Origin: a bacterium
Lineage (GTDB): Bacteria > Joyebacterota > Joyebacteria > Joyebacterales > Joyebacteraceae
Assembly (NCBI GenBank): GCA_025774935.1
Contig: JALGZK010000002.1
Coordinates: forward strand, 1-64,000
Length of the DNA: 64,000 bases
Reading direction: 5' to 3'
Below the pieces are notes generated by a model. It saw nothing but the letters and a program-made list of their open reading frames with translations, searched no databases and was not told where the DNA came from. Below are positions 57,400 to 61,810 of the stretch, in pieces (the first letter of the stretch is position 1; the number at the start of each line of letters is the position of its first letter). The position numbers and the translations under genes were made by a program.

Positions 57400-58047
57400 C
57401 TACTGCCCGCCAGCCCAGGGCCATCGCACGACGGGCTCGTCCTCGACCTCCTCGTACTCGACTTCGCGTTCGAGCAGTGAGCGATCGGTCGACATGCCGA
57501 GGCGCCGTCGGACGTCGATCCACCACCATTCGCCGTGCGCGCTCTCGAATCGAATCGTGTAAGAACTCGGACCGGTCACCCTGATGCGAACGGTCGAACG
57601 CCCGCCGCGCTCGGCAGGCGTCATCTCGACGTCGACGACGCCGAACTCCTCCTGCCGCTCCCTCGAGAGCGGGAACCGCATCGGGTCACGGCGGCCGGTG
57701 ACGTCGAACACGTAGAGCGCGGCGCGCGTGAGAGTGACGTCAGCCGTGAACGAGCCCCCGAGCTTCCCGTTCACGAAGCGCGCCGTGACGGCGCGCTCCT
57801 CCCGCACGAGCCCTTCCTGGAGAATCCCCTTCTGCCACGCCTCCTTCGCCTCCTTCGACTTCTTCCTCCGCCAGACCTGCGTGAGGACGGCGAAGAGTGG
57901 CGCTATGGCGTACCCGAGCGTCGGCGCGAGCTTCCCGATCCGCCCGGGGCTTATGTCGATCGAGTCGTGGTACCTGTAGACGACGTAGGCGAGCGCGAGA
58001 ATCCCGAGGGCAACGTAGACCCAACGTTCGTTCCGTTCTTCGGCCAC
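57400..58047 (-). CDS. Membrane protein with two N-terminal helices and a soluble C-terminal domain
   Basis: This 215-residue protein starts at GTG 58047 after GAGGAG. Two membrane helices (about 9-25 and 43-58) are followed by a soluble beta-rich domain (about 78-190), from AVTARFVNGKLGGSF to RFESAHGEWWWIDVRRRL, which resembles a PH/GRAM-like fold. No enzymatic motif is seen. It lies between tryptophanyl-tRNA synthetase and the phosphomutase, all on one strand with short gaps. Confidence 0.65.
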   Translation of the reverse strand: MAEERNERWVYVALGILALAYVVYRYHDSIDISPGRIGKLAPTLGYAIAPLFAVLTQVWRRKKSKEAKEAWQKGILQEGLVREERAVTARFVNGKLGGSFTADVTLTRAALYVFDVTGRRDPMRFPLSRERQEEFGVVDVEMTPAERGGRSTVRIRVTGPSSYTIRFESAHGEWWWIDVRRRLGMSTDRSLLEREVEYEEVEDEPVVRWPWAGGQ

Positions 58048-59212: not shown

Positions 59213-61546
59213 CTACCGTCCGGGCCGCTGCGGCGCACCGGAATGCGCCAGCGCTTCGAGCCGCTTGCTCGCTTCGCTGGAGGAGGGGTTCGAGCGCAGG
59301 GCCATCTCGTACGCCCTGATCGCAGCTGCTGTGTCGCCCGACGCCTCGTGGAACCTGCCGGCGGCCAGGTAGACTTTCTCCCTCATGGAGCCCGGCACTT
59401 CCTCGGACGCCGTCGTCGGCAACCCCGCGCCGGTGGCGCCGACACGGTCGCGCAGTTCGAGGAGGACCCCGACGCTTGCGTCGGCCTCGTCGAGTCTGTC
59501 GAGGCCGACGAGCGCCACGATCCTCTCGGAGTGACCAGCGGGGTCATCAGGACGCCCCTCGACGTACGCCTCCAGGTGCGCGAGCGCGGACTCGTAGTCG
59601 TTCAGTCTGAGATAGAGCCTTGCGAGCCAGAGCCTCCTCGAGAAGACGGAGGGGTCCAGCGCCACTGCGTCTTCGAGGACCGACAGTCCCTCGGCCAGTC
59701 GTCCGGAGTTCACGAGCGCCTCGCCGAGCCTGAACGCGTAGGCCGAGCTGGCCGGGTCGAGCGCAGCGGCGGTCCCGAACTCCTCCGCGGCGAGCCCCCA
59801 CTCATTCTCCAGCCCCTCGCGCAGACCGAGCTCGAAGTGGATCTGCGCTCGGTACCGGGCGTCGATTCTCGGTACGATCCGCAGCTCGTCGACGCTGACC
59901 TCGAACGGCTCGAGTGTCGTCCTGACCTCGAACGTCTGCTCGGCTGACTCGATCGCGATCCACTCCTCGTACGACCACACGCCGAGGTCGATCGTGAGCG
60001 GGAGGGGGGTACGGTAGATCTCGCCCTCCTGGCCGACGGTGCCGCGGACGAGGTATCCGCCTGCCTCCGTCGTCTCGACCTCGTACTCGAGAACGTATGT
60101 CGGCAGATCTCCGCGGTAGACCCACTCGTAGAAGTACCAGTCGAGCTCTCCGTCGGCGACCGCTTCGAACGCTGCAACCACCTCGCGGAGCCCGGCCGGG
60201 CGGAACGCGTACTCCTCGCCGAGCGTCCCCAGGGCGGAGCAGTAGGCGTCCCGGCCGATCAGGAGCTCGAGCATCTCGAAGAGGGCCGCTCCCTTGCCCC
60301 GGCAGATCCTGGGATCCTTCGACTCGGCGTTCCCGAGGCACGACCTCAGCGGAGCGCGCCCTCCGGAATCGGCGAGCGCCGCGACGTAGTCGCTGAGGAG
60401 CTCCTCTCTCCGCCGCCCTGCGCCCTCGCCGTCGTCGATGGCCGTGAGCCACGCGAGCTCCGTCCACGCGGCCAGCCCGTCGGACAGAATGGGTCCGGCG
60501 TCGACGAGGAACGGCCACCAACTCCTCGACAGGTCGCTCACGTACCTCGCCGGGTGGGGCCTCTTCGACATCCCGCCGCTCGTGCCAGCAGAGGGAATGA
60601 CGATGAGACCGGGACCCCACGCCTGGCTCGCAAACCCACCGGTCTCCGGGGGGGCGAGCACGACGTCGATCCAGTCGAACGGGTAGGGTCCGTAGCACGC
60701 CTCGAGGAACCGCACGAGGTCCCGGAGCTCGGAGGACTGAATCGGGAACGAGCCGGACCGTCCGCTGCGGGGATCGCCGGGAGGAATCGCAATCCTGTGG
60801 TATCCCATGAACACGTCGCCGAGCACGCTCATCGCGCTCTCGAATGCGCCGACGAGGATCGCCGCGCCTGGAACCGGCGATCCGACCTGCCAGACGTCTC
60901 CCCCGAAGCACGGGTCCAGCCGGTCCTCGAGCGACGGCGCCATGCCGGCGAGCGCTCCGGTCGCGACGCTCGCGTACCCCTCGGGATAACGGGCCACGAT
61001 CCGCATGGTCGCTGGATCGTGCACCGGAGAGACCGGGTGCCAGCGCGACTCCACTCCCAGGAGGACGAAACCCGTCGCGAGTAGAACGCCGTTTCCCCGC
61101 GCGAGCGTCCCGTCGTAGCGGATTGAGACGACGACGTCACGGGGATCGTCGCCGCCGGCCCCGCCGTCCGGCATCGCGACCTCGAGCGTCTCGCCCGCCC
61201 TCTCGAACGCGAGCTCCGCGCCCGCTGCCGTGCGCACCTGCCGGACTTCGAACGTCTCGTTCAGGCGTAGCTTCAGGTGTTCGCTCCGAAGCACCGCCTC
61301 GATCCTGCTCTCGCCCGAGATGAGCCCGCCTGCCGGATCGATGCAGACGGCGACCTCGTGATGCGTCACGTCCTGCGTGGCGAGGACCGCGAGCGTCGAG
61401 TCGACCCGGACGGCGTCGGCGAGGAAGAGCTCCTCGAGAGCGTCGCCGGCGTGGTCGGTGACGACCGGGCAGAACGGGAGCTGGGCCGGGGCCGCTGTCG
61501 CGACGACCACGACGACGACAAGCGCGAGTGCGAGCGACGTTCTCAC
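59213..61546 (-). CDS. M1-aminopeptidase-like protein lacking the zinc motif, fused to TPR repeats
   Basis: This 777-residue protein has a signal peptide (about 1-21). Residues ~50-490 follow the M1 gluzincin layout: an N-terminal beta domain, a GGFASQAWG segment in place of GAMEN, then the helix YVSDLSRSWWPFLVDAGP where active enzymes have HELAHQWWGN. His, Glu and His are replaced by Ser, Asp and Arg, so zinc binding is lost. Next follow ILSDGLAAWTELAW (the usual NEGFA region) and a C-terminal block of about four TPR-like repeats (about 590-770). It is probably a secreted non-catalytic binding or scaffold protein. Confidence 0.8.
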   Translation of the reverse strand: MRTSLALALVVVVVVATAAPAQLPFCPVVTDHAGDALEELFLADAVRVDSTLAVLATQDVTHHEVAVCIDPAGGLISGESRIEAVLRSEHLKLRLNETFEVRQVRTAAGAELAFERAGETLEVAMPDGGAGGDDPRDVVVSIRYDGTLARGNGVLLATGFVLLGVESRWHPVSPVHDPATMRIVARYPEGYASVATGALAGMAPSLEDRLDPCFGGDVWQVGSPVPGAAILVGAFESAMSVLGDVFMGYHRIAIPPGDPRSGRSGSFPIQSSELRDLVRFLEACYGPYPFDWIDVVLAPPETGGFASQAWGPGLIVIPSAGTSGGMSKRPHPARYVSDLSRSWWPFLVDAGPILSDGLAAWTELAWLTAIDDGEGAGRRREELLSDYVAALADSGGRAPLRSCLGNAESKDPRICRGKGAALFEMLELLIGRDAYCSALGTLGEEYAFRPAGLREVVAAFEAVADGELDWYFYEWVYRGDLPTYVLEYEVETTEAGGYLVRGTVGQEGEIYRTPLPLTIDLGVWSYEEWIAIESAEQTFEVRTTLEPFEVSVDELRIVPRIDARYRAQIHFELGLREGLENEWGLAAEEFGTAAALDPASSAYAFRLGEALVNSGRLAEGLSVLEDAVALDPSVFSRRLWLARLYLRLNDYESALAHLEAYVEGRPDDPAGHSERIVALVGLDRLDEADASVGVLLELRDRVGATGAGLPTTASEEVPGSMREKVYLAAGRFHEASGDTAAAIRAYEMALRSNPSSSEASKRLEALAHSGAPQRPGR

Positions 61547-61781: not shown

Positions 61782-61810
61782 TTGACCTCGGCCCGCGCCG
61801 GGGGTATCAT
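61782..61810 (+). promoter_or_regulatory. Promoter of the iron-sulfur scaffold gene
   Basis: TTGACC (61782-61787), a 17-base spacer, TATCAT (61805-61810). Leader about 27 bases with AAAGGAGC before the ATG at 61844. Confidence 0.75.

Follow-up and report, generated by a model that had tools for sequence, protein, structure and literature searches.

Gene and Domain Architecture

The minus strand of the window, that is, of the whole analysed stretch of 64,000 nucleotides, carries at 59213..61546 one open reading frame that starts with GTG and encodes 777 amino acids, exactly at the coordinates of the preliminary description. Its features are as follows (residue numbers refer to the window protein):

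59213..61546, minus strand: whole gene; signal-peptide-like N terminus, pseudo-M1 part and C-terminal TPR (777 aa, GTG start)
61481..61546, minus strand: signal-peptide-like stretch, residues 1-22 (N-terminal sequence read by eye)
60785..61375, minus strand: M1 N-terminal beta domain, residues 58-254 (model, structural comparison, family alignment)
60107..60784, minus strand: degenerate M1 catalytic domain, residues 255-480 (model, structural comparison, family alignment)
60614..60640, minus strand: GxMEN-loop region GGFASQAWG, residues 303-311 (family alignment; GxMEN in 0/18)
60524..60538, minus strand: HExxH equivalent SDLSR, residues 337-341 (family and profile alignment)
60479..60481, minus strand: third zinc-ligand position, Asp356 in the window protein (D/E in 13/18, A in 5/18)
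60299..60301, minus strand: catalytic-Tyr position, Arg416 in the window protein (Tyr in 0/18)
59867..60106, minus strand: beta domain behind the catalytic domain, residues 481-560 (model, family alignment)
59240..59860, minus strand: about five TPRs and a last helix, residues 563-769 (Pfam and model)

From its N terminus, read by eye, the window protein is probably exported. The orthologues also have hydrophobic N termini, with start codons picked among alternatives and L017 lacking its 5' end. The earlier designation as secreted agrees with this signal-peptide-like start, the cleavable export signal being putative. In the alignment of all 18 family members, C68 occurs in 16 of 17 rows covering this position and C213 in 17 of 18; both are absent from L015 and neither is missing from any other row, which suggests a C68-C213 disulfide. 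This pair, together with C284, C403 and C436 of the former catalytic domain, forms a cysteine pattern that is compatible with export.

M1 Fold

With an E-value limit of 1, Pfam assigned no M1 model to the window protein by itself, so that a family profile and a fold comparison were needed. At the same limit, Peptidase_M1 was recognized in 14 of the 18 members (best E 9.8e-7), and the family profile recovered the solved M1 peptidase 6a8z with E 5e-10. An AlphaFold2 model built from the 18 members (mean pLDDT 80.2, pTM 0.68) resembles M1 peptidases across about residues 45-572. The top structural match is the D. radiodurans M1 peptidase (Z 28.5, 399 aligned residues), tricorn factor F3, LTA4H, PepN, IRAP and ERAP1 reach Z 25-28, and all proteins among the matches listed (50 rows) belong to M1, with Z 25.4-28.5. 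Foldseek paired the model with IRAP at E 2.4e-24. As modelled, the N-terminal beta domain and the catalytic domain have the M1 peptidase fold. The M1 layout recognized beforehand is borne out by both the model and the family profile, and the structure prediction that had been called for returned this fold and not a different one.

Loss of the Catalytic Site

The motif SDLSR immediately precedes the WW in the zinc helix of M1, where the family profile (leLsrsWW) aligns with HEVAHQWW of the intact relative L177. HExxH is found in none of the 18 family members: the position of the first His is taken by S, L, G, W or A, that of the Glu by E in eight rows, D in two and G, A or S in eight, and that of the second His by H in four rows and otherwise by R, K or A. 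D or E occupies the position of the third ligand in 13 rows and A in five; the four rows with the second His are all among the latter, and no sequence retains more than one of the three zinc ligands. Neither GxMEN nor the catalytic Tyr before KG could be found in any row of the family alignment, and none of the marks of an active M1 enzyme (HExxH...E zinc site, GxMEN, Tyr) is present in the 18 members. The replacement of HExxH by SDLSR and of GAMEN by GGFASQAWG, both noted from the sequence beforehand, is therefore confirmed. Orthologues with intact HExxH, which had been named as a sign of a recent mutation, were sought and amount to 0/18. As to the question whether the degenerate residues are conserved, the degenerate site recurs in 18/18 members, but the replacing residues themselves vary. 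The old active-site residues drift between genera with none conserved among the 18 members. This drift speaks against a single, constant ligand of the former pocket.

An enzyme of different chemistry in a remodelled pocket could draw on C284, C403 and C436, which are invariant (18/18) in the former catalytic domain. However, the zinc-ligand, general-base and Tyr positions lack any invariant residue, and invariant cysteines in an exported protein are more simply explained as disulfides; we consider such an activity very improbable.

TPR Part

The C-terminal TPRs, likewise seen beforehand, are substantiated by Pfam TPR_14 (E 1.5e-14 in the window protein) and by TPR models in 17 of 18 members; the remaining one, L018, stops at the contig end before the TPR region. 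The family profile matches an engineered TPR protein with E 6.8e-52. Beyond residue 572, which the structural rows barely pass, the TPR call is made from sequence profiles and model helices. On these grounds the C terminus is assigned to tandem helix-turn-helix repeats of the TPR type. Against NCBIfam, the TPR part gave weak, below-cut-off matches to envelope proteins, for example BcsC, PgaA and PrsT. In ERAP-type M1 enzymes, the corresponding C-terminal place is taken by the helical domain IV. By Pfam, HEAT_2 occurs in 4/53 and 5/46 M1 relatives in our two sets, two loci being common to both. Since M1 proteins are thus able to end in a helical repeat, the TPR array may replace such a domain. 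Passages of PMC7950410 describe TPRs as interaction modules. The remark that TPRs are unusual for secreted proteins was overstated, as exported TPR proteins are well known, for example BepA in the same passages (PMC7950410).

Comparison with Other M1 Loci

We collected 99 other M1 loci (53 + 46 + 3, minus the three same-place duplicates L156/L026, L157/L021 and L200/L020); the count leaves out the PF01433 matches L111, which was omitted from the list, and L114, which fell under the length limit. HExxH is kept in 97 of these loci. The two exceptions are L132, a fragment missing the region, and L184, a separate loss. In the 46-locus set, the motif was read in 45 of 48 reading frames; where L155 and L170 have a frame lacking it, the gene is split and the motif lies in the companion piece. 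The family-derived TPR profile detected no TPR in any of the 99 loci, and Pfam none in the sets of 53 and 46 relatives, the last three loci having been tested by the family profile only. Since a locus extends 1.5 kb to either side of its match, some proteins are truncated, and a TPR in a missing end would escape detection. With this scope, the view that TPRs are unusual for M1 proteins holds for the 53 + 46 sampled relatives.

Searches with the M1-part profile in other phyla (1, 77, 10, 4, 132, 17 and 9 genomes; E-value limits 1e-8 to 1e-14) revealed no additional pseudo-M1/TPR fusion in the matches that were examined. These phyla are few and were chosen by the genomes that happened to turn up. 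The 132-genome search gave 37 matches, of which the 30 with a locus were examined; in the six other searches a locus accompanied every match listed. The proposed search for other inactive M1-TPR fusions thus yielded 17 orthologues within the phylum and none further among the matches examined elsewhere.

L184 (G251:C14), from a different phylum, is an M1 homologue with GCGVACQWW at the zinc helix and no detected TPR. The other seven rows of its clade retain HExxH, making L184 an independent pseudo-M1.

Distribution and Genomic Context

The M1-part profile matched in 18 of the 20 genomes that were searched within the phylum of the window, a count that includes the window's own genome. The 17 other members share 41-81% identity with the window protein, apart from a truncated one at 36%. 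On 15 of the 17 contigs of other genomes the order is trpS, pseudo-M1/TPR gene and divergent nifU, and the remaining two contigs end at the gene. To one side the row continues with genes for a zinc-finger anti-sigma-like protein, an ECF sigma factor, a phosphomannomutase and a hypothetical protein of 215 aa, and to the opposite side with DUF4190, DUF2752 and SLT. The row is incomplete in places: G003 lacks the 215-aa gene, and DUF4190, DUF2752 and SLT are missing within the stretch fetched, for example from G003 and G010. The neighbours trpS, phosphomannomutase, the ECF sigma/zinc-finger pair and nifU are ordinary genes and point to no partner. Two genomes lack the gene. G005 (96% complete) has no match to trpS either, so an assembly gap is likely. 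In G009 (90% complete) trpS is present, and the 7.4 kb ahead of it contain neither the pseudo-M1/TPR gene nor nifU, pointing to a gene that was lost or moved. A pattern scan of the contigs returned 13 loci, all on contigs with the same lengths as orthologue contigs already found, and no new members; close relatives are favoured because the pattern includes the invariant Cys284.

Two observations concern the neighbours themselves. The 215-aa protein (window 57400-58047, minus strand) has no Pfam match at E 0.001; of the 17 contigs with orthologues, 14 carry its gene next to trpS, and G009 has it too. Just ahead of the divergent nifU, a promoter-like TTGACC-17-TATCAT is located at window 61782-61810 (plus strand), compared with a mean of 0.2 such sites in the shuffled region.

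Selection and Age of the Loss

The former catalytic domain evolves with NG86 dN/dS of 0.15-0.20 in 9/9 pairs, indicating purifying selection and hence an old and fixed loss. For the TPR part, dN/dS amounts to 0.08-0.40, with one low-divergence pair at 0.58; constraint is lower in one genus (0.31-0.58, four pairs). Compared with its neighbours the protein is fast-evolving, with 36-80% identity versus 72-92% for trpS.

A recent or decaying pseudogene product might be invoked because the catalytic residues are gone. This reading is already contradicted and scarcely credible: the frames are open in 18/18 members and interrupted only by contig ends (L017, L018), and purifying selection is accompanied by a conserved genomic place. 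Stops flagged as frame breaks in L002, L004 and L010 were rejected as such, since they are the natural protein ends.

In a first tree of 68 rows, from which 3 of 53 intact rows had been dropped as incomplete (L128, L132, L135), the 18 pseudo rows form one clade (support 100/100), whose stem measures 1.75 changes per column. A second tree of 12/18 pseudo and 45 other rows (19/50 intact, 26/46 further loci) agrees, with 100/100 and a stem of 1.5. The branch joining this clade to the others has support of 48/82 in the first tree, where long branches meet, and of 86/62 in the second. These trees fit a catalytic loss that happened once, before the split of the sampled members of the phylum. Inheritance is vertical and selection has been maintained. 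Being conserved, old and under selection, the degeneration is more than a chance mutation. We judge the protein to be a pseudo-enzyme variant and not a system of a new type.

Mean pairwise identity is 0.46 for the N-terminal domain, 0.46 for the catalytic domain, 0.60 for the following beta domain and 0.49 for the TPR part, making the beta domain (481-560) the best-conserved part. This bears on the possibility that the M1 part is a rigid carrier only and that binding falls to the TPRs together with the conserved beta domain, as the catalytic domain is less conserved and its former active-site residues drift. The low dN/dS of the catalytic domain in all nine pairs speaks against it, however, as do a TPR identity hardly above that of the N-terminal and catalytic domains and the higher TPR dN/dS in one genus. 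We regard this as rather unlikely.

Proposed Function

The fold, the loss of the catalytic motifs, the TPR, the vertical inheritance and the maintained selection are established. Beyond these, we lean, with reserve, towards an exported non-catalytic pseudo-peptidase binder with a C-terminal TPR, in which the M1 apparatus was lost once and which serves a chaperone-like or envelope-assembly role. An ancestral M1 aminopeptidase would have given up its zinc site and catalytic apparatus before the sampled phylum members split, and the resulting protein would act outside the cytoplasm. It could offer two candidate binding surfaces, the M1 groove deprived of its chemistry and the TPR array, each of which might hold a protein or peptide partner. 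The preliminary description had suggested that the protein may have been recruited for binding or assembly; this is still the likeliest reading, though an inferred one.

Alternatively, the protein could regulate an intact M1 paralogue, for example as inactive subunit or decoy. A further PF01433 protein bearing HExxH exists in 10 of 20 genomes (G000, G001, G002, G004, G006, G007, G008, G010, G016, G019), but in six of 20 (G003, G011, G013, G014, G017, G018; 78-100% complete) the pseudo-M1/TPR protein is the sole PF01433 match at E 0.01. Its presence thus does not depend on an intact PF01433 paralogue, which disfavours an obligate partnership with intact M1; moreover, the conserved neighbours are non-M1 proteins. 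A regulator of this kind appears improbable.

For the binder favoured here, the known M1 pseudo-enzymes are the first comparison; to our knowledge all of them are eukaryotic. The catalytic residues of TAF2 are lost, and we know of no TPR in Tma108. From M1 aminopeptidases proper (PF01433; D. radiodurans M1, 6a8z) the window family differs by the absence of HExxH, GxMEN and catalytic Tyr (0/18) and by the C-terminal TPR, while the N-terminal and catalytic domains are alike (Z 28.5, profile E 5e-10). For the M1 family, a review names, in its section on other pseudometallopeptidases, yeast Tma108 as the sole case (PMC11266112). This nascent-chain binder seems, according to the same section, to hold N-termini in its substrate pocket, an indication that the M1 fold can serve this purpose; in contrast to the window family, it is associated with translation in yeast and keeps all active-site residues but one, its activity being unsettled (PMC11266112). 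TAF2 of TFIID shares a predicted aminopeptidase-like fold and a place as assembly subunit, as excerpts of PMC4309443 have it, but is nuclear and eukaryotic.

BepA of the E. coli periplasm, an M48 peptidase with C-terminal TPR, offers the closest functional model; it is similar in joining an exported peptidase fold to such repeats, export being predicted in our case. Extracts of PMC7950410 and PMC8423444 report a chaperone activity of BepA, of which the protease-dead E137Q still weakly promotes LptD maturation, and contacts of its TPR with BamA, BamC, BamD and LptD. Unlike the M1 fold without HExxH (0/18) found here, BepA belongs to M48 and has an active HExxH. The BepA model matches 2 of 18 family members with E 0.0018 at best, the sole sequence resemblance to BepA seen, and M48 was absent from the 25 of 27 matched Pfam families listed for the family. 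The window family thus lacks the M48 domain with HExxH that, together with TPR, defines BepA. The role proposed above would be comparable, by analogy, to the chaperone side of BepA. In a more specific and tentative form, the protein might be a phylum-specific exported assembly factor or chaperone, in which TPRs replace the helical domain IV of an M1 protein with erased zinc site, a counterpart of BepA on the chaperone side only.

Among the open-licence PMC papers listed for M1 pseudo-peptidases, M1 + TPR and Eisenbacteria peptidases, we found no description of this protein. A bacterial pseudo-M1 kept at one genomic place by 18 of the 20 genomes sampled would illustrate clearly how an exported protease can become a binder, and it would add a conserved protein of unknown function to an almost unstudied lineage.

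Some intact M1 relatives show extensions of their own. Seven loci (L032 at G000:C10:30988-31530, L100, L109, L110, L113, L117 and L118) have frames of 1,071-1,322 aa in which an M1 domain with intact HExxH lies towards the end. Some of the 53 Pfam-scanned relatives match ABC-2 membrane families, and a tie of these to the long frames of the L032 type is a guess. L124 (G043:C178) combines intact M1 with an M28 peptidase domain in a single 994-aa frame. Intact M1 is also found in L020 (G040:C22), L199 and L201, with frames of about 970-990 aa. One of the 53 scanned relatives matches a PDZ domain and one a ChaN/Tiki-type haem-binding family, presumably L020 to judge from its sequence.
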